A DNA stretch of 64,000 nucleotides from Candidatus Nitrospira nitrificans (GCF_001458775.1 NZ_CZPZ01000031.1:62001-126000), one strand, 5' to 3'. Numbered from the stretch's first letter, positions 53,075 through 63,695 are shown. Translations and numbers: made by a program. Notes: generated from the letters alone by a model not told the origin.

Positions 53075-54202
53075 TCAAGCGGCCGGGGCAATGTCCATGG
53101 CGGGAGGCGAGACGGGGGAGTCCTTTACCACATGAACGAAGAGTTCCAGCAGCAGCGGATCAAAATGCGTGTGAGATTGAAGTGAGATCTGGCGAATTGC
53201 GACATCCTGCGGCAGCGCGACGCGCCCAGGGGCGTCGGCGGTCAGATGATCAAACGTTTGGGCGATGCCGACAATACGAGCCAGTAAGGGAATATCCGGG
53301 CCTCGGAGTCCACGAGGGTAGCCGTGTCCATCCCATTGCTCATGATGGGACGCGATAACTTGCCTCACCTCAATCGGTAAACCCAACGGCGCAATCATCC
53401 GCACGCCTCTGTCGACGTGTTCTCTACAGACGGATGCCTCGCCGGACGGAAGGACCTGGTCTTCTGAAAACCTATATGAGGGGAAGCTTGTTTTTCCTAA
53501 ATCATGCAGAAAAGCTCCCAAGGCCAATGCTTTTTGCTCGGAGACGATAAGATTGAGTCGGCTAGCCATCAAGGTCGCATAGAAACTCACTCTGCTCGAA
53601 TGGGTGAGTAATTGACGGTCTGTGGCCTCCAGAGCATCGGACAAGAGTGGCAGCAGGGTCATCTCGTCTTGCCGCAAGACATCATGGCTCTGCGAGTGAA
53701 CGGAGAGCGAGGCATATCCCGCCTTCACCTTATCCCATGCACGTGCGCTTTCTTCCTCCGATCCCCAAAGGTCCGGTAGTGTTCGAAGGCAGCGACGAAG
53801 AAAGTCGAGTCGGCGCTTCTTGTCCATCGTCTGTTGGATGAGGGTGGTCAGCTCGTTCACGTTGAAGGGCTTAAGCAAATAGCCCGCAGCTCCGTGGCGG
53901 ACGCCCTCCATCGCAGCCTTCAGGCTCCCGTATCCCGTGACGATAATGACCTCCACGTCAGGGCGATAGTGCTTGATGTCTCTGAGGAGGTCGAGTCCAT
54001 GACGATCCGGAAGCTTTTGATCGAGCGTGATCAGATCAATGGGTTCCTGACCGAGGATTTCTAGGGCTGTCTTGGCGTTTTCTGCCGAACGAACGTTGCA
54101 GAAAGTGTGAAGAATCACGTTAAGGGCATCGCGTGGCCCCGCTTCATCATCAACTACCAGGACTGTGGGTTGTGTTTCAGGCTGACAAGAAACCGTTGCC
54201 AT
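53075..54202 (-). CDS. Response regulator with HD-GYP phosphodiesterase domain
   Basis: This 375-residue protein has a receiver domain (phosphate site D61 in LITLDQKLPD, residues 12-130). After a linker an HD-GYP domain starts at about 205: HDLGK, then HHEQWDGHGYPRGLRG. HD-GYP enzymes cut cyclic di-GMP, so the protein lowers c-di-GMP when phosphorylated. It lies next to the NtrC-type regulator and kinase on the same strand but has its own promoter. It would be an output arm of that system. Confidence 0.92.
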   Translation of the reverse strand: MATVSCQPETQPTVLVVDDEAGPRDALNVILHTFCNVRSAENAKTALEILGQEPIDLITLDQKLPDRHGLDLLRDIKHYRPDVEVIIVTGYGSLKAAMEGVRHGAAGYLLKPFNVNELTTLIQQTMDKKRRLDFLRRCLRTLPDLWGSEEESARAWDKVKAGYASLSVHSQSHDVLRQDEMTLLPLLSDALEATDRQLLTHSSRVSFYATLMASRLNLIVSEQKALALGAFLHDLGKTSFPSYRFSEDQVLPSGEASVCREHVDRGVRMIAPLGLPIEVRQVIASHHEQWDGHGYPRGLRGPDIPLLARIVGIAQTFDHLTADAPGRVALPQDVAIRQISLQSHTHFDPLLLELFVHVVKDSPVSPPAMDIAPAA

Positions 54203-54402: not shown

Positions 54403-55833
54403 TCATTCTTGCATGGGTAGGTCTGACTCTTGCGGGGAGGAATTATCCGGGCGACCGATGTTGAGGGTATCCATTCGGTATTTCAGCATCCGTCGGCTGA
54501 TTCCCAGTAGGTTTGCGGCATGGGTTTGTACGTAATTGGTCCGTTTCAGCGCATCAAGGATAATCTCTCGTTCAAACTCCATCACGGCTTTTTCAAGCGA
54601 CATGCGACCCGCGAGGGTATCGTCCCGAAGCGACGTTGAACGGGAGTCGTTCTTGATCAACGTCGGCAAATGCTCCGGCATGATTTGCGCGGCATGTTGA
54701 GACCAGATGAACGCTTGCTCGACGACGTTTTCCAGCTCGCGAACGTTGCCCGGCCAAGAATAGCGTGTCAGAAGCTCCAGTGCGTCTTTCCCGAAATCGA
54801 TCCGAGGGCGTCGTTCCTCTTCCAGTCGTTTCTCAAGGAAATGTTTGGCCAGGAGGGGGACATCCTCACCGCGCTCACGGAGTGGAGGGAGAAAGAGCGC
54901 AATGACGTTGATGCGGTAGTAGAGGTCCTCTCGAAACTGCGATTTTCGAACCAGGTCATCAAGATTCTTGTTCGTCGCCGCCACGATGCGGACATCGACT
55001 TTGATCGACTGAACCCCACCGATTCTCGTAAACTCACGCTCTTGGATGACACGCAGAAGTTTCGCCTGTGTGACCGGACTTAAGTCGCCGATTTCGTCCA
55101 GAAACAACGTTCCGGTATTCGCCAATTCGAACTGTCCGACGCGCCGGGCTGTGGCATCCGTGAACGACCCTTTTTCGTGGCCGAACAGTTCGCTTTCAAT
55201 GAGCGTTTCAGGCAAGGCTGCGCAGTTCAAGGCAATGAAGGGACGTTCGCGCCGAGAACTGTTGTAGTGCAAGGCTTTCGCGACCAATTCCTTCCCTGTG
55301 CCGCTTTCTCCAGTAATGAGCACAGTGGTACGGCTGTCGGCGACTTGTTCGATTTTTGAGTAGATCTCCTGCATACCCTGGCTTTTACCGATCAGATTAT
55401 GGAAGGCATAGCGCTGGACGACTTGAGCCCGCAGCTGCTTGACCTCTCGCTCCAGTTCGGAAGAGTTCAGGACGCGATCGATGATGATGCGGAGCTCATC
55501 GACGTCGAACGGTTTTGAGAGATAGTCGGCGGCTCCGAACTTCATGGCGTCAACAGCTGTTTTGACGGATTTAGTGCCTGTGAGCATGATGACAGGAGTC
55601 ATCTTGCTCTCCATGCGAAGCGTTTGAAGCACCGCGAGGCCGTCGGTTCCCGGGAGAATGACATCCAGGAGGATGAGGTCGGGCTCGTCTTTCCGAAACA
55701 CGTCGAGCCCCTCCTGTCCATCGCCGGCCTGGAGAATGTCATAAATCGGCTCAAGAACCATCTTGAGGGAGGCACGGACTCGTGGATCGTCATCGATCAA
55801 CAGCACTCGCTTCTTAACAACCAAACTTTCCAC
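54403..55833 (-). CDS. NtrC-family sigma-54 response regulator
   Basis: This 476-residue protein has a receiver (D57 in LILLDVILPG), a sigma-54 AAA+ domain and a Fis-type HTH (THAANLLGISRRMLKYRMDTL). The AAA+ part has GESGTGKELVAKALH (Walker A), the loop GSFTDA in place of GAFTGA, GTLFLDEIGD (Walker B) and WPGNVRELENVV. The loop that touches sigma-54 has Asp in place of the second Gly, a variant seen in other NtrC-like proteins, so contact with RNA polymerase may still be possible. It is 15 bp after its kinase gene and likely in one operon with it. Confidence 0.92.
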   Translation of the reverse strand: MESLVVKKRVLLIDDDPRVRASLKMVLEPIYDILQAGDGQEGLDVFRKDEPDLILLDVILPGTDGLAVLQTLRMESKMTPVIMLTGTKSVKTAVDAMKFGAADYLSKPFDVDELRIIIDRVLNSSELEREVKQLRAQVVQRYAFHNLIGKSQGMQEIYSKIEQVADSRTTVLITGESGTGKELVAKALHYNSSRRERPFIALNCAALPETLIESELFGHEKGSFTDATARRVGQFELANTGTLFLDEIGDLSPVTQAKLLRVIQEREFTRIGGVQSIKVDVRIVAATNKNLDDLVRKSQFREDLYYRINVIALFLPPLRERGEDVPLLAKHFLEKRLEEERRPRIDFGKDALELLTRYSWPGNVRELENVVEQAFIWSQHAAQIMPEHLPTLIKNDSRSTSLRDDTLAGRMSLEKAVMEFEREIILDALKRTNYVQTHAANLLGISRRMLKYRMDTLNIGRPDNSSPQESDLPMQE

Positions 55834-55848
55834 AAGCGCTCCTTACGT

Positions 55849-57123
55849 CTATTTTTGATGGGATGGAAGATTGATGAGGAAGGTCGTTCCAATCCCTTCC
55901 GTACTCTGAACTTGAATCTCTCCTCGATGCTCCTGAACGATCTGATGCGCGATGGTCAGTCCCAAACCTGTTCCTTCGTTCAGGGTGCTCGCATGTTTGG
56001 TGGTAAAGAACGGATCGAAGATGTGGTCAAGGTTTTCAGGCGAGATGCCGTGCCCGGTATCTTCGATCCGTATCTGCGTCCACACCTCACCGCCCGCTTT
56101 TTGGAGCCTCGTGGTCCGTACCCGAAGCGTTCCGGCTTTTTCGCCGATGGCATCCATCGCATTCAAGAGCAGGTTTAAGATGACCTGTTTGATTTGCTGC
56201 CGATCTAACATGCCACGAGGAAGCTCCGGCGCCAAATCTTTTTCAATCTTGATTCCTCGGCTGTCGGCCTTCACGTGGATGAAATACAGGCACGACGAGA
56301 CGATTTCATTCAGATCCTCATTGGTCAACTGAGGTTCCATGTATCGAGCATAGTCGAGAACCTCTTGAATCAACCGCTCAATCCGATTGACGTCATCGAG
56401 CACAATGCGGCTGAATTCATCGATAAACTGGCTGTCATCCTTCCGTTCAGGAGCCAGCTGAATGAAGGTTTTGATGGAGGTCAAGGGGTTTCTGATTTCA
56501 TGCGCGAAGCCCCCTGCAATGGTTTCCAAAGAACGCAGTCGATCAGTTCGCCGCATGAGGACTTGAGATTGCCGAAGATCCTCGTACAACAGGAGAGAGT
56601 CGATCGCATTGGCGGCGCTCTGGGCCATCGCGGTCAGTAGTTCCAGGGGGGAAGAGAGGATGACGGGGGATTCTCTCGGAGATCGGAGTCCTACGAAGGC
56701 GATCAACCGACCTCGATTCAGCAGCGGGACGGCTAGATGGAGGGGAAGCATGGCGAACTGGGCATCCGTGGTGTTGTCCGACGATCCCATGCATAGGGGG
56801 TCGGCCAGTACGGACGAGTCGAGTATATCTTGGCGATCAGCCAGCTGTTGAACGAGGGGGTGATTGAGAGGAACGACGGGAGGCGCTATTGAAGGAGTCG
56901 GCGGGGGTACATCCACCAGGCGGAAACATTCTCGCTCACGGTCAAACAGATACAGTAGCCCGTGAGAGTGCCGGGATGCTTCGGAGAAGCCGGAAAGAAT
57001 CCGCTCTGCAATGAGTGGAACGCTTGTGGCATATCCCATGTCCCGTATGAACTTCGTGAGTCGTTGCAGTGAGTCCGTGCCTGCCTGACAAGGGTCCGAT
57101 TGAGGAGCTGGATGACGTGTCAT
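55849..57123 (-). CDS. Sensor histidine kinase with GAF-type input
   Basis: The 424-residue kinase has a GAF-like domain (residues 20-180), HisKA with the phospho-site H208 (GGFAHEIRNPLTSIKTF) and a HATPase domain (RQQIKQVILNLLLNAMDAIG, DTGHGISPENLDHIFDPFFTTK, GTGLGLTIAHQIV). There is no membrane helix, so it senses a cytoplasmic signal. It would phosphorylate the NtrC-type regulator that follows after 15 bp. The promoter region is 57124-57224. Confidence 0.94.
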   Translation of the reverse strand: MTRHPAPQSDPCQAGTDSLQRLTKFIRDMGYATSVPLIAERILSGFSEASRHSHGLLYLFDRERECFRLVDVPPPTPSIAPPVVPLNHPLVQQLADRQDILDSSVLADPLCMGSSDNTTDAQFAMLPLHLAVPLLNRGRLIAFVGLRSPRESPVILSSPLELLTAMAQSAANAIDSLLLYEDLRQSQVLMRRTDRLRSLETIAGGFAHEIRNPLTSIKTFIQLAPERKDDSQFIDEFSRIVLDDVNRIERLIQEVLDYARYMEPQLTNEDLNEIVSSCLYFIHVKADSRGIKIEKDLAPELPRGMLDRQQIKQVILNLLLNAMDAIGEKAGTLRVRTTRLQKAGGEVWTQIRIEDTGHGISPENLDHIFDPFFTTKHASTLNEGTGLGLTIAHQIVQEHRGEIQVQSTEGIGTTFLINLPSHQK

Positions 57124-57224: not shown

Positions 57225-60200
57225 TCACCCAGTAGATTTGGTCTTCCGTACAACGGCGAGTAGGAGTTGGCCGTCGAGGATGGGGAACAGCTGGATTGAC
57301 CCCGCACCCGCATGAGTCAGCAGACGGGTCAATTCATCCCGCTCGTAGATATGCAATAAGCCGTGGCGAATGGCTTCACGCAGACGGCCGAGATAGTGAA
57401 GGACGATCTGGGCCGGAGACCCAAATCCGTCGTGGCCTTCGGCGAGCTGGTGACGGCGAAACAGCATCGAGAGGTCGGTGTGCGGTTGAAGGCAGGTCAC
57501 GAGGGATGTCCCGTTCGGATGCAAGACTCGGAGCATCTGTCTGAGGCAATGAAGGGGTGAGGAAGTGAAAGAGAGCGAGAGATGGCAGAGAATGCGCTCA
57601 ATCGATCCGTCGGCGAAAGGAAGCGGTGCATCCCAGTCCGTGCGCATCCAGCTTGTTGCCATCAATTGAGCAGTTGGGACGGCAGCTCTGAGCGTGCCAG
57701 GCAATTCTTTCGCAAATGTATGGAGATGCTGTTCTGCAAGTCTCAGTGATTCGGCAGATTGGTCCAACCCGACATAACGGAGAGGGACGGTCGCTTGTCT
57801 GCTGTGATGTGCCGACCGATAGGCTTGATTGGTCAACATAAGACGGACGAAGTTTCTTTGGCCGCAGCCGATATCGAGGACAGTCATACCTGGTTCAAGG
57901 GGAAGGAGCCGTCGATATAGGTCATTGGTCATGGCCGAATAGTCCGGCAAGTGTTCGAGTTGAGACAGATGAGCCAAGTGAGCTCCCCACAAGGCGCTGC
58001 GTGTGGCCTGCGAGATGTGGTACCGGATGCGGATCCGTTCATGCTCCAACTGCCGTTGCTGAGACACATCGTGAATGTTCGGTTCCTGCCTCTGAGCTGA
58101 GGGATGACCGTCGATCATGGGCGTGGAGATCATCTTCATGATCGTCTCAAAGGCTTCAACGCGGCGCTCGCCGTCGCGGGATTCTCCGGACAGGTCGTCC
58201 GGCAGCGATACGACGGATAGGGCGGTTTCCATGGCACGAACAGGCACACGTTGAGGGCCGAAGATGTTTTCAATGGAACGGTTCTTTCCGGGAGAGGCGA
58301 GGGTCATCGGCGGAGTGACCAGTTGAGCAAGATCAGTCGATAACGAGGCTACATCGACATACTGTCCGGTGATCGCATCGTCGACAAACTTGTCGAAGTC
58401 GACATTGAGGCCCCAGAGATTGACGACGCCCCACCGACGGCCTTGCCGGTAGGTTCCAACGACATCGGCGTGAGTGATAGTGGAAAGAGCAGTTTCTAGA
58501 TCGAGGACCGGATTCAATAAGAAAAGCCGATCAGTCGCTCTGCTCTGGGCCAGGACTTTCACCGTTACTCGCGCAGCAATGTCCTCGGAGAGGAGAGTCA
58601 CCGGAGCGGTGGGCCATGTGGTATGGACAAGGTCCAAAACGCTCTGGAGATCTGCCTGCATGCTGCTTAAAGTAAAGTGCAGGACACTGCCTTCGCTTTG
58701 GCCGACATGGTTTGAGTGGTCATAGCGAAGCACGCGCAAATGGTTGACAGCGAGATGAAACGAGAGTGAGACGAAGTCAGTCTGGGTCGATCCGAATCCG
58801 GGGATCACGATGATGATCGGGGCATCGGGTGAAACCTGATGGCGAGCATGGTCGGCCGTCACGGCAATAACTTGGCCGCGTGTATTGCGGCACTCCCATC
58901 TGTCGCTGACGATGAAGGAATGGCTGTCTGGGGCCGCAATGTTGAGGGAAGAGCCGATGTGTTGTGCAAGCACACGGTTGACTTCTCGTTCTACGAGCGG
59001 CGCCGGTTGAAAAAAACGGATGCCGATGCGCTGTCTCGGTTGGGATGGAGCCGGTGTGAGCTCGGATGGAACGGTTGAATCGGGCGCGAGATAGACCATG
59101 CGGCCGGTCAGAATTGCGTCTGGTTGCTGTAGCATCGGTTGATTGTGAGTGCCGATCGAAGAGAAATGAAGCGTAAGTACCTCCTCGGTCATTTTCAGGA
59201 ACGGTTCTGCGAGCAGGCAGACACCGCCTCTGCTGAAGTTGATGACGAGGCCCGACAGACGTCCGGCCGCAGCGGTAGAAGTTTCTATACGGACCGGCAG
59301 CGCGACTCGAACTCTCATGGTCTCACGATGGTCTGTACCCAGCAGGCTCGCTTCGGTACAGGCCTCTGCCAGATCGCTGGGCTTATCCATCGGTGGAAAT
59401 TGAGCTTCGACCGTTATGGCAAGCGCGCGCATGCGTGCTTGCTCGATAAACGACGTGAGGATCTTCCCTTGGCTTTCATTGAATGCGCTGAACTCGAGTG
59501 CGAGACGTGAGGTGCGCTGTTCGATGCCGCTCAGGCGGGGAGTTTCTCCTCGGTCATACGCGGTGGCATCCAATTCCACGATACTGACGACGGTCTTGAG
59601 GATCAGATAGACCGGCTGTTGCTCAACTGAGGGGACGATACCCTCGATCTCCAACAAGGCTCCGCTCGGGCTCAAGTCGACCATGATGCCTTCGTGTAGC
59701 GTGTTGCCGATGGTAATGCGCGCTGGGAGGTCGACGATGGTCCGAGTGTATGCGCGGCGCTCAGGCAACGGCTCCGATGGTCGGATCGAGTGGATGGGGG
59801 GGGCGGTCGGCAAGGTGTGCGCCGGAGCCTGAAGAATCGCCTCGGCAGTCCGCTCGGCTGTCCCACCCGCTGAAGAAACGACGGAGGGCACAGGCACAGT
59901 GGGACTGTCCGGCAACGGAGATGGTTCCACCGGAATCCGCACCGTGAGCGACAGAAAGCCGCTGAGCGGAGCCCGAAAATCCCAGCGGCCTCCGAGTCGC
60001 TTGATTATCCCATAGGCCTCAAAGAGATCGCCGGTTGCTGCTTGGAGGGTGGGTTTTTCAACAGTGGGGATGATATCCGTCTCTTGGATGTGAATTTCGA
60101 ATTCGGTGACCGTGGCTTGTGGAAGCGAGGCGGTCCCTTGGTCTACGGAGGGGTCGTTTGAACTGGCGACCCTGGTACTGACTCGTAATCGATGTGGGGT

Positions 60201-61433
60201 TCCTATAGCAGCCATATAACGGTGGGCATATGAGAGAAGCATGCGAACGAGATCGACCATGGAGTCGACGCTTCCGGTAAAGGGCGGAAGGTCCTGTCCA
60301 TATACCAGTTCAATCCAATCAGTGTTCACAAGGGATGGTTGAGCGGAGGCCACGACGGCCTCGATGATGTCATTGATGGTGTCTCGGCCAATAATGATAT
60401 TCGTCGTGGTCTGGGCGAGTTCGCTTCCTAGATCGACGGCTTCAGCGGCATACGTCGCGAGCGAATCGACTTGTTCGATCAGGCGCGCATCACGGATGGT
60501 TTTGAGCAGGAGTTGAGATTGGACTTGTATCGCATGGTGGGGGGCACGCAGAGTTTTTGATAAGGTCGACACGCGTCGAGCGATCGCGAGCAGTCGATCG
60601 GATTCACGAAGTTGATGCTCAAGCTGGTGAATGGTCTTGGCCTGCCGGCGGTCTTGTGAAATATCGCGCAACAGACCCAGCGTTCCCAGATATCGGCGAT
60701 TCACATCATAGAGCCCTCTTGCGCTGATCTCGGCTTTGACTCGAGTGTGGGCAGGTTTGCCGGAAGAGGTCTTGCGGATGAGGTCGATCTCTATACGCTG
60801 GGCGGCTCGCGGCCCTGTTCTGCGGTCGTTGAAGCGATGGCGAGCGAGATCCTGTTGATCTGAGGGCACGACGGCGGAGTAGGGAGTGCCGAGCAACTCG
60901 TCTTGCCTGTAGCCCAGCATGTCGGCGGCGACCGGGCTGAGTTGCACGAATCGTCCTTTCCCGTCGAGTTCATAGAATCCATCGCTCAGCATTTCGATGA
61001 GACGGTCGTGGCGTTCCTGCGTCTGTTGGAGCGTCATACGGATAGCGCGTGTTTCGATCGCGCCTTTCGCACACACCACGAGTTCGGCGAGAAAGCCCGG
61101 AGACTTTTTGTAAAGGACAATGTCCGCACCGGACCGAAGCGCATTCGAGGCGGTGGCGGAGTCGCCATGATCCGTTTGCACTACGAGCGTGGCATAGGGG
61201 ACAAGTCGCTTCAGTTCCTGGAAACTAGGCGTAGCGCGCGGGGCGATCACCCCCTCATCAATTACGATGAGCTGCCATAATGCCCGATGTCCCCACTGAA
61301 GCGCTTCCTCCAGTGTGTAGACCGCTTCGACGCGGCAGTTTGGAAATGATCTCCGGAGGCCGAGCGTGGCTAGTTTGATTTCTTCGGCGATCGCATTGAC
61401 GAGGAGGATGGTAACAGGCTCACTCTGCGGCAT
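57225..61433 (-). CDS. Giant fusion: pseudo-receiver, PAS, kinase-like, two PilZ, LuxD-like and methyltransferase domains
   Basis: This 1402-residue soluble protein joins parts not usually found in one chain. Residues 1-125 are a receiver without the usual Asp (LIVIDEGVIAP), 135-265 a PAS domain, 270-510 kinase-like dimerisation and ATPase parts without clear catalytic motifs. PilZ 1 lies near 557-655 (ERRAYTR, DLSPSGA) and PilZ 2 near 700-800 (HRETMRVR, NFSRGGV); both motifs can bind c-di-GMP. Residues 868-1100 match LuxD acyl transferase (RYDHSNHVGQSEG, ARVTVKVL), but the Ser nucleophile place reads SEDIAAR. Residues 1150-1400 are a class I methyltransferase (VLDIGCGQRNF). No family name covers this. 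No membrane helix is seen. Confidence 0.85.
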   Translation of the reverse strand: MPQSEPVTILLVNAIAEEIKLATLGLRRSFPNCRVEAVYTLEEALQWGHRALWQLIVIDEGVIAPRATPSFQELKRLVPYATLVVQTDHGDSATASNALRSGADIVLYKKSPGFLAELVVCAKGAIETRAIRMTLQQTQERHDRLIEMLSDGFYELDGKGRFVQLSPVAADMLGYRQDELLGTPYSAVVPSDQQDLARHRFNDRRTGPRAAQRIEIDLIRKTSSGKPAHTRVKAEISARGLYDVNRRYLGTLGLLRDISQDRRQAKTIHQLEHQLRESDRLLAIARRVSTLSKTLRAPHHAIQVQSQLLLKTIRDARLIEQVDSLATYAAEAVDLGSELAQTTTNIIIGRDTINDIIEAVVASAQPSLVNTDWIELVYGQDLPPFTGSVDSMVDLVRMLLSYAHRYMAAIGTPHRLRVSTRVASSNDPSVDQGTASLPQATVTEFEIHIQETDIIPTVEKPTLQAATGDLFEAYGIIKRLGGRWDFRAPLSGFLSLTVRIPVEPSPLPDSPTVPVPSVVSSAGGTAERTAEAILQAPAHTLPTAPPIHSIRPSEPLPERRAYTRTIVDLPARITIGNTLHEGIMVDLSPSGALLEIEGIVPSVEQQPVYLILKTVVSIVELDATAYDRGETPRLSGIEQRTSRLALEFSAFNESQGKILTSFIEQARMRALAITVEAQFPPMDKPSDLAEACTEASLLGTDHRETMRVRVALPVRIETSTAAAGRLSGLVINFSRGGVCLLAEPFLKMTEEVLTLHFSSIGTHNQPMLQQPDAILTGRMVYLAPDSTVPSELTPAPSQPRQRIGIRFFQPAPLVEREVNRVLAQHIGSSLNIAAPDSHSFIVSDRWECRNTRGQVIAVTADHARHQVSPDAPIIIVIPGFGSTQTDFVSLSFHLAVNHLRVLRYDHSNHVGQSEGSVLHFTLSSMQADLQSVLDLVHTTWPTAPVTLLSEDIAARVTVKVLAQSRATDRLFLLNPVLDLETALSTITHADVVGTYRQGRRWGVVNLWGLNVDFDKFVDDAITGQYVDVASLSTDLAQLVTPPMTLASPGKNRSIENIFGPQRVPVRAMETALSVVSLPDDLSGESRDGERRVEAFETIMKMISTPMIDGHPSAQRQEPNIHDVSQQRQLEHERIRIRYHISQATRSALWGAHLAHLSQLEHLPDYSAMTNDLYRRLLPLEPGMTVLDIGCGQRNFVRLMLTNQAYRSAHHSRQATVPLRYVGLDQSAESLRLAEQHLHTFAKELPGTLRAAVPTAQLMATSWMRTDWDAPLPFADGSIERILCHLSLSFTSSPLHCLRQMLRVLHPNGTSLVTCLQPHTDLSMLFRRHQLAEGHDGFGSPAQIVLHYLGRLREAIRHGLLHIYERDELTRLLTHAGAGSIQLFPILDGQLLLAVVRKTKSTG

Positions 61434-61735: not shown

Positions 61736-62740
61736 TCAGTAGGCGGCGGCAGTGTTACCCTGTTCCGAGCAGGCACCCGGCGTCATGTACAGCAGGTAAT
61801 TGCCCATGCCATGTTGGAGTTCAGCTTTCTGAAGGGGATGATGGTGTACCATCACCATTTCATAGTCATCTTCCTTGGTGATCGGGAATCCCTTGCCGTC
61901 TTTATACACTTGATGAGGTAGGAATTCGCGGAGCGTTCCGTCCCGCTCCACATCCGGCACAGTCCGGAGGAGTGTCTGTTTTTTTGTTTTATTTTCCAAC
62001 GCAATCATGAGCAATTCATCGTGACCGTGTGGATAGGCGTATTTGACACAGCCGTCCATCCGAAACTTCAATGGTGCCGTATGGACTTGGACTCCTTGCC
62101 TGATTTCGATCCCTTCGTCCGTCTGATCCGCAGGCCGATCACCGAACTTAGTGAAACAGACGATGTTGACGCCGACCTGATAGATATCCATTGCTTTGAC
62201 CGGTTTGGCCTTCGGCGCAAAGTACATTGTAAAGGTGGCGATGACGTCCTTCGTGGGAGGGGCCCCGTGATAGAACGCGACCACCGTCATTAACTTATCG
62301 GTTGCCGAAAGTTGGACGCCGTATCCATCGGGGAATTGGGTTTCCGACATTTCGAGTCCGGCCCCACCGAAGAAGAGCGGCTCACCGGGGCAGGACACGC
62401 TGGGCTTGGTGTTGTTGATCATCAAAATATGATGCAGGTAATTTCTCGGCAATTCCTTCCCGTCGACTGTGGAAAGGGCCGATTTGAAGCCGATCAAATA
62501 TTTGTCTTCCGGCAACTGGAAATTGAATCGCGGCATGGAATCGCCCATATCGCCTTCACCATGGCCGGTCGGAAGGTCGATGGGGCCGAAGGTTAAAACA
62601 GCGGTGTTTTCTCCATAGGTGATTTTTGAGCCCACCTGTTTTTTCAGGGTGGGAATGGCGTGATGCTCATGCCCCCCGTCGGCGTAGGCCGATGAGATCA
62701 TGAAGAAGAGAGAGAAAAACAGAGTGAGGGATCTGCGCAT
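61736..62740 (-). CDS. Secreted histidine-rich protein, possibly copper-binding
   Basis: This 334-residue protein starts at ATG 62740 behind GGAGGTCTT. The signal peptide ends at AYA-DG and is followed by GGHEHHA. The chain has paired histidines in RNYLHHILMINN and HHHPLQKAELQHGM, and cysteines in SVSCPGEP, NIVCFTKFG, DGCVKY and GACSEQ. The His-His and Cys pattern with beta-rich parts is like type II copper monooxygenase folds, but I cannot confirm the family. It is co-directional with a SnoaL-like gene 80 bp upstream. Confidence 0.65.
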   Translation of the reverse strand: MRRSLTLFFSLFFMISSAYADGGHEHHAIPTLKKQVGSKITYGENTAVLTFGPIDLPTGHGEGDMGDSMPRFNFQLPEDKYLIGFKSALSTVDGKELPRNYLHHILMINNTKPSVSCPGEPLFFGGAGLEMSETQFPDGYGVQLSATDKLMTVVAFYHGAPPTKDVIATFTMYFAPKAKPVKAMDIYQVGVNIVCFTKFGDRPADQTDEGIEIRQGVQVHTAPLKFRMDGCVKYAYPHGHDELLMIALENKTKKQTLLRTVPDVERDGTLREFLPHQVYKDGKGFPITKEDDYEMVMVHHHPLQKAELQHGMGNYLLYMTPGACSEQGNTAAAY

Positions 62741-62819
62741 AAGACCTCCAGAGGAAGTGAAGCGGTGATGTTTGAACCGGACTCCGATGTCTTGGTATGA
62801 CTGGAAGCAACAGGCCAGC

Positions 62820-63695
62820 TCATTGGCCACTGGCTGGTGATGAGGTCACCTTCTTCCAGTGATAGGTGCCGCCATGTTCCTTCGGTGGAATATTTTTCCT
62901 CGTATCGACCCGCGTGTACCACCAAATTCCCTTCGCCTGCGTGCCGTCTTCCGACAGGAGTACCTCAAACCCGCCTTCGCGATCGTTGCCGGGCTGGTGC
63001 CAGGTGCCTTGCCACAGTCGGTTCTCGATTTTTGTCGTGGTAAACCGTCCGCCCTGTTGCGTGTAGGGGCCGTTCCCGCTCTTATCGAGCGTCGCCTTGT
63101 AGCGTTTGTCGTCTTCGACTTCGAGAATATCCCATTCCCCGCTCACATCCGGCAGCGCGACAGCCGCGCTGCTGACGAGCTTTTGCGACCCCGCAGCCGG
63201 GGACGGCGAGGCAAGAGGTCCCCCAGGTTGAGCCGATCGGAACGATTCGTGCCACGACAATAATTGCCAACGTCCGGCACGCCGTTCGAGGACGCCGGTT
63301 TCCCTCAAGGGCAGGACCGTGCGCTTCACGGCGGATCCTTCGCCGACATAACGAGTATAGTCGAGTTCCATCGTAAACCAGGCCAGGTCGCCTTTCGTCC
63401 AGACTTTGAGCTCCGTAATCGGAATCTCGATCTTTTGGGTGTTGATAAATTCTTCACGCATTTCCCGTTCAAACTCAGGCCAGCCGATGTATTTGCGACC
63501 ACCGACTGTGTAACTGACGATATCGGCATCGTGGGCCATGAGGCGAGACAGTGTCGGGAGGTCTTTTTCCGCGTTGGCCCGGACCATTTGACGAATGGCC
63601 GTTTCTGGATCGAGTGGGTCACCGGCGCTCGCGACCGTAGCAAAACCGATCAGGAGCAAGAGGCTTCCACAGGCGAATGATCCCCGACGGGGCAT
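62820..63695 (-). CDS. Secreted SnoaL/DUF4440-like protein with C-terminal lipocalin-like part
   Basis: The 291-residue protein starts at ATG 63695 behind GGAGACTCTT. A signal peptide ends at TVASA-GD. Residues 28-145 match the NTF2-like group (DPETAIRQMVRANAEKDLPTLSRLMA, VGGRKYIGWPEFEREMREEF, GRWQLLSWHES). After a proline/alanine linker, residues 175-285 form a beta domain (SGEWDILEVEDDKRYKATLDK, GTWHQPGNDREGGFEVLL) like a lipocalin. The NTF2-like part often binds small molecules; a reaction is not evident. It lies 80 bp before the His-rich gene. Confidence 0.75.
   Translation of the reverse strand: MPRRGSFACGSLLLLIGFATVASAGDPLDPETAIRQMVRANAEKDLPTLSRLMAHDADIVSYTVGGRKYIGWPEFEREMREEFINTQKIEIPITELKVWTKGDLAWFTMELDYTRYVGEGSAVKRTVLPLRETGVLERRAGRWQLLSWHESFRSAQPGGPLASPSPAAGSQKLVSSAAVALPDVSGEWDILEVEDDKRYKATLDKSGNGPYTQQGGRFTTTKIENRLWQGTWHQPGNDREGGFEVLLSEDGTQAKGIWWYTRVDTRKNIPPKEHGGTYHWKKVTSSPASGQ

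Follow-up and report, generated by a model that had tools for sequence, protein, structure and literature searches.

What might a protein do that joins a hydrolase domain without its catalytic nucleophile to a series of signalling domains and a methyltransferase? A gene for such a protein lies in the window, the whole 64,000-nucleotide stretch of Candidatus Nitrospira nitrificans DNA that was analysed (GCF_001458775.1, NZ_CZPZ01000031.1:62001-126000). An earlier inspection of the bare sequence (the sequence-only reading) had described six domains in one frame without a stop and proposed that c-di-GMP binding could switch the methyltransferase. The frame was recovered at 57225 to 61433 as 1402 uninterrupted codons on the minus strand, the plus strand there being full of stops. 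It encodes, in order, a receiver, a PAS domain, a degenerate histidine-kinase core, two PilZ domains, a LuxD-like alpha/beta hydrolase and a class I methyltransferase. Overall, the earlier observation stood in part: the fusion, its domains and the lost LuxD Ser were found again, while the supposed absence of the receiver Asp was not.

57225..61433, minus strand: gene for the 1402-aa fusion protein (REC-PAS-HK-like-PilZ-PilZ-LuxD-like-methyltransferase)
61038..61421, minus strand: receiver-like domain, residues 5-132; Asp59, Thr and Lys retained, acidic pair gone (Pfam in relatives, fold, motifs)
60648..61034, minus strand: PAS domain, residues 134-262 (PF00989, 8e-10)
59919..60620, minus strand: degenerate histidine-kinase core (DHp and catalytic-like parts), residues 272-505; Lys at the position of the H-box His (motifs, fold)
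59364..59777, minus strand: PilZ 1, residues 553-690; RxxxR and DLSPSG here, the second motif degenerate in several orthologues
58959..59330, minus strand: PilZ 2, residues 702-825; RETMR and NFSRGG, the most constant c-di-GMP motif
58104..58922, minus strand: LuxD-like alpha/beta hydrolase, residues 838-1110, catalytic triad gone
58581..58583, minus strand: codon of Asp951, at the LuxD nucleophile (Ser) position
57228..58031, minus strand: class I SAM methyltransferase, residues 1135-1402; motif I LDIGCGQ, acid D1224

Domain assignment with HMMs agreed with this architecture. In the window copy, Pfam called the PAS domain, two PilZ domains (3e-11; 43.8 bits against a cut-off of 22.5), Acyl_transf_2/LuxD (PF02273; 2e-10, 40.8 bits against 20.3) and the methyltransferase (5e-9, 36.6 bits against 27). 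The receiver received no Pfam call in the window copy and was called in relatives (2e-10, 3e-8, and 1e-16). Two structure models were made, one of the N-terminal part, which was weaker as a whole (pLDDT 70.9, pTM 0.30), and a confident one of the hydrolase-methyltransferase part (pLDDT 87.5, pTM 0.88). Between them, they recovered the receiver fold (Z ~16), the kinase core, with residues 350-505 matching the NtrB catalytic domain (Z 15.1), and the LuxD fold, while the methyltransferase part matched small-molecule class I enzymes (Z ~19-20). Foldseek matches of the N-terminal model included the PilZ proteins MotI and VCA0042 (c-di-GMP complex).

Conservation of the fusion

The full-length protein, with the same domain order, was found in eight other genomes of the genus (44 to 79% identity; 39 genomes searched), and the order recurred in some 40 tabulated sequences. 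The complete chromosome of N. moscoviensis also has it, apart from the fused C-terminus of its protein. Misassembly had been named as one way in which the fusion could prove false; because domain order and neighbours are conserved across genomes, it is excluded, and the fusion is real.

Genome contigs were also scanned by pattern, and the 75 loci recovered carry titles that name Nitrospirota lineages, save one titled Nitrospinota (L025). In a sample of the phylum, matches were found in 68 of 295 genomes; the loci of the genome search, contig scan and phylum sample overlap in part, and most sequences come from metagenome assemblies. About half of the same-genus genomes in the phylum sample had no copy, and the protein is therefore dispensable in the genus. 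Since the searches favour close relatives, restriction to Nitrospirota is not proven. On plasmids, no record covered 80% of the hydrolase-methyltransferase query. Motif counts given below refer to the contig-scan set plus the window copy, which comprises 42 long forms such as that of the window.

Receiver, kinase-like and PilZ domains

The claim that the receiver lacks its Asp did not hold. D59 aligns with the phospho-acceptor and is kept together with T87 and Lys109, the Thr/Ser and Lys of a receiver; across the long forms, Asp59 and Thr/Ser are each present in 41/42 and Lys in 42/42. It is instead the acidic pair for the metal ion that has decayed, reading NA in the window copy and NE, SE, ND or SD in most others. 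The kinase-like part had been described as lacking clear catalytic motifs, and both the H-box His and the ATP-site motifs are indeed absent from the window copy, yet this part folds like a kinase core. The H-box phospho-acceptor, Lys in the window copy, is His in 4 of the 42 long forms and has been lost in the other 38.

Both RxxxR and D/NxSxxG, the motifs of a PilZ c-di-GMP effector, were found in the window copy. RxxxR of PilZ 2 is present in all 42 long forms and NxSxxG in nearly all, and we infer from these motifs that PilZ 2 probably binds c-di-GMP. With 5 GGDEF and 26 PilZ matches, the source genome has the means to make and read this nucleotide; it also has one sigma-54 and an exosortase. 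For short forms, PilZ domains were judged with a profile built from long forms only, which supported PilZ in L035, L090, L040, L024, L025 and L084 but gave weak support in L026 and none in the other short forms.

Loss of the catalytic triad in the LuxD-like domain

The sequence-only reading had pointed to a LuxD-like pattern, RYDxxxHVGxSxG, with SEDIAAR in place of the Ser nucleophile. The window copy does contain RYDHSNHVGQSEG and SEDIAAR, Asp951 occupies the Ser position, and the acid and His of the Ser-Asp-His triad are missing as well. Among solved structures, the best match was 1tht, the LuxD myristoyl-ACP thioesterase of Vibrio harveyi (Z 23.4, rmsd 3.5, 274 residues), and a LuxD fold was thus confirmed for the modelled hydrolase part. 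The NCBIfam LuxD equivalog (NF052253) gave 38.3 bits, short of its cut-off of 420. A lux-type role was rejected, as LuxC was not found in the source genome.

Triad states were read from an alignment with a real luxD gene. All 42 long forms have Asp at the nucleophile position and neither the acid nor the His. Outside the long forms, short relatives across Nitrospirota keep Ser-Asp-His, L035 has Asp-Asp-His, f2 (L040 and L041) has Asn-Asp-His and L090 has Asn-Asp-Asn; the L112 family, which belongs to another class, visibly has all three triad residues. Short relatives give 1e-32 against the LuxD model and 3e-21 against the real luxD gene.

In a midpoint-rooted tree, the long forms make up one supported clade, and relatives outside it mostly keep Ser. 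Because the root was placed in this way, the direction of evolution is proposed rather than read from the tree; we prefer an enzyme-first direction because the intact triad is widespread and homologous to LuxD, the tree being unrooted. In one genus (L109), the same locus holds two genes in place of the fusion: a frame of 450 codons encodes REC-PAS-PilZ on its own, and immediately after it comes a PilZ-PilZ-hydrolase-methyltransferase gene whose triad is intact, followed by genes for a transmembrane kinase and the sigma-54 regulator. The occurrence of the parts as separate genes in relatives had been put forward as a refutation of the fusion; such genes do exist here, but the split state illustrates a possible route to the fusion and does not count against it. 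Both types occur in genomes of genus g10, where the short form has Ser and adjoins a transmembrane kinase and the long one has Asp and adjoins a soluble kinase.

Operon and neighbouring genes

55849..57123, minus strand: soluble GAF-HisKA-HATPase histidine kinase, downstream, constant neighbour of the family
54403..55833, minus strand: AtoC/NtrC-type sigma-54 response regulator
53075..54202, minus strand: receiver-HD-GYP response regulator, with Gln in place of the last metal-ligand Asp

A histidine kinase gene lies directly downstream, on the same strand, in nearly every locus with readable flanks (exceptions: none at L084 and L111, one gene between at L041, and loss in N. moscoviensis), and at long-form loci it is followed by the sigma-54 and HD-GYP regulators. 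By a simple hydropathy count, several membrane segments are predicted in the kinases beside Ser forms (21/21) and none or one in those beside Asp forms (49/49), an association that goes back to a handful of independent events (the single long clade, together with L035, L090 and the Asn group). Pfam confirmed HisKA_7TM in all three kinases tested. The window kinase and regulator missed the NCBIfam cut-offs for PrsK (TIGR02916; 112.6 bits, cut-off 300) and PrsR (TIGR02915; 433.8 bits, cut-off 502.6), respectively.

The nearby HD-GYP gene had been expected to lower c-di-GMP. Its product keeps FLHDLGK and HHEQWDGHGYP (the HD and HHExxDGxGYP motifs), but in IAQTFD the Asp of the xxAD motif is Gln, both in the window and in all listed orthologue variants. 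From the PmGH ligand set, we take this Asp to be the last metal ligand, and because it is Gln here, the lowering of c-di-GMP is uncertain.

Both the operon and the intact-triad relatives had been overlooked in the sequence-only reading. The kinase/sigma-54 operon and the intact-triad short relatives beside a 7TM kinase suggest a signalling input protein no less than a switchable enzyme. The short-form loci, where an intact LuxD triad and a methyltransferase adjoin a HisKA_7TM-GAF kinase, also recall Ralstonia, in which the methyltransferase PhcB makes 3-OH fatty acid methyl esters that are sensed by PhcS, a kinase of the same operon (PMC6989110, PMC11960443). Intact short forms could likewise release an acyl group and methylate it, giving a methyl-ester signal for the adjacent 7TM kinase, and the long forms would be derived, either binding the signal or still methylating free fatty acids. 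We consider this unlikely: PhcB is likened by description and not by sequence, a comparative study of Nitrospirales names AHL systems only and no methyl ester (PMC12342949), and the genus of the window has the long form only.

Selective constraint

Across 13 close relatives, the median dN/dS from pairwise estimates, which are not independent, was lowest in the hydrolase core and PAS domain (both 0.22), followed by DHp (0.23), methyltransferase (0.26), receiver (0.31), PilZ (0.32-0.38), catalytic-like part (0.34), hydrolase C-part (0.53) and linker (0.64); neighbouring genes gave 0.06-0.21. Neutral decay of the whole fusion is not supported by these non-independent estimates, which are below 1 in every domain.

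The hydrolase core (elbow and pocket floor) is constrained about as tightly as the methyltransferase, and the hydrolase C-part, former site of the acid and His, is relaxed. Purifying selection on a core that has lost its triad fits the earlier suggestion that the LuxD-like part is a binding module, and we infer that the dead domain has been retained as a pocket for a ligand, probably an acyl one.

Part of this pattern would also suit a non-catalytic scaffold, in which the kinase-like core, though degenerate, would partner the downstream kinase and dampen or redirect its activity, leaving a structural role only for the hydrolase and methyltransferase. The H-box His has been lost from most long forms although the DHp segment is under constraint, and catalytic residues are gone from every enzymatic domain except the methyltransferase. 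SAM motif I, however, is retained in nearly all long forms, seemingly beyond structural need, and we regard such a scaffold as very improbable.

Methyltransferase and c-di-GMP

Motif I of the methyltransferase is intact in the window copy, Asp/Glu1187 is found in all long forms scored, and position 1224, the second SAM-binding acid, is Asp or Glu in 31/41 long forms and Gly in 10/41. Judging by these motifs, the domain may transfer methyl groups to the bound ligand or to a partner. It could do so under c-di-GMP control, with the PilZ domains gating catalysis and the dead LuxD domain just presenting an acyl substrate. The conserved PilZ 2 motif and SAM motif I and the constraint on the methyltransferase are consistent with such a switch, and a two-protein precedent exists in the inhibition of CheR1 by c-di-GMP through the PilZ protein MapZ (PMC6370697). 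The Gly at the second SAM-binding position in some long forms argues against it, and the near-constant pairing with a histidine kinase would be left unexplained; we therefore rate the switch as unlikely. What was upheld of the earlier interpretation is the triad loss over a constrained core, the PilZ 2 motif and SAM motif I.

Proposed origin and role

We favour, tentatively and just short of calling it probable, a cytosolic pseudoenzyme sensor derived from a hydrolase-methyltransferase that was partnered with a membrane kinase. The ancestor, in Nitrospirota, would have been a LuxD-like acyl hydrolase or thioesterase fused to a small-molecule methyltransferase, its gene lying beside that of a 7TM-GAF histidine kinase. 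This gene would have joined an upstream REC-PAS-PilZ gene, a degenerate kinase core would have been acquired, and the hydrolase triad would have been lost (Ser to Asp, acid and His gone). In the resulting protein, the dead hydrolase domain would hold the putative acyl ligand, PilZ 2 would read c-di-GMP, and the PAS, REC and kinase-like parts would relay their state to the downstream soluble histidine kinase and on to the sigma-54 regulator, while the methyltransferase, its SAM site retained, would act on the bound ligand or a partner. Together, these results suggest that a lipid enzyme seemingly kept its fold, lost its catalytic residues and gained sensor parts, turning from enzyme into signal receptor.

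The series can be read in living genomes. Some encode an intact enzyme beside a membrane kinase, others have the parts as unfused neighbouring genes or a triad that has partly decayed (Asn-Asp-His, Asp-Asp-His), and others again encode the giant sensor, which has no triad and is paired with a soluble kinase. A broader proposal, to which we give a low probability, is an undescribed Nitrospirota signalling module in which a LuxD-like hydrolase-methyltransferase makes an acyl or methyl-ester signal for the adjacent 7TM kinase, the synthase having become an intracellular, c-di-GMP-tuned receptor in Nitrospira. The host bacteria are central to nitrification, and the favoured origin, if true, would give bacteria an equivalent of the hormone receptors that derive from hydrolases and would hint at an unrecognised lipid-type signal in Nitrospira. 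Within the literature library searched, no paper joined PilZ, Nitrospira, methyltransferase and c-di-GMP.

Comparison with known systems

The family resembles LuxD (1tht, PF02273, NF052253) in its fold, the RYDxxxHVGxSxG region and the nucleophile elbow, and its short relatives keep Ser, Asp and His; unlike LuxD, the window copy has Asp at the nucleophile position, lacks the acid and the His, carries six further domains in the same chain and lies in a genome in which LuxC was not found. With PhcB-PhcS, the methyl-ester quorum sensing system of Ralstonia, it shares, by description, a methyltransferase gene adjoining a histidine kinase gene with response regulators nearby, whereas here the methyltransferase is fused to LuxD-like and PilZ parts, and the long forms have a dead hydrolase and a soluble kinase. 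PrsK-PrsR of the exosortase-A/PEP-CTERM system likewise combines a GAF-HisKA kinase with a sigma-54 regulator, has its 7TM N-terminus matched in short-form loci and its exosortase in the source genome, but the window kinase and regulator score below the NCBIfam cut-offs.

In MapZ-CheR1, a PilZ protein conveys the effect of c-di-GMP to a methyltransferase (PMC6370697), although these are two separate proteins and CheR1 methylates chemoreceptors. The gibberellin receptor GID1 has an alpha/beta-hydrolase fold and goes back to an ancestor that turned into a receptor with the loss of a catalytic residue (PMC3531792); as a plant protein from another hydrolase family, it offers an analogy only, for the same change from enzyme to receptor that we propose here.

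Gene neighbourhoods of long and short forms

The long forms, in which the full domain order carries Asp at the LuxD nucleophile position, have a constant neighbour gene, whose protein gave no match in a Pfam search.

Window 61736-62830, same strand as the fusion gene, upstream: conserved gene (YADGGHEHH...)

Among the shorter hydrolase-methyltransferase relatives, an O-methyltransferase gene was seen at locus L023, where its assignment was confirmed with PF00891, and similar genes lie just past the kinase on the opposite strand in L024, L026, L031 and L044.

L023 10212-11231, opposite strand, just past the kinase: O-methyltransferase gene

The triad-intact short forms of Nitrospirales (L027-L039) have N-terminal regions of about 200 residues, which did not match the unbiased PilZ profile.

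Joined and broken frames

At locus L107, the join between the hydrolase-methyltransferase and the kinase looks frameshifted, and the single frame may therefore be an assembly or sequencing error.

L107 3308-8305: 1666-codon frame, hydrolase-methyltransferase with 7TM-GAF kinase

A family copy split over several frames (L095 4414-6372; G001 C132) is either a decayed gene or an assembly error.

In Nitrospira moscoviensis, the methyltransferase end continues in-frame into the sigma-54 regulator's AAA+ and DNA-binding portion.

L083 3313-8454 (Nitrospira moscoviensis NSP M-1, NZ_CP011801.1): 1714-codon frame

The kinase gene is absent from this locus, and the regulator part is without its receiver and has a Walker A reading VFGGTGKE, with the first Gly gone.
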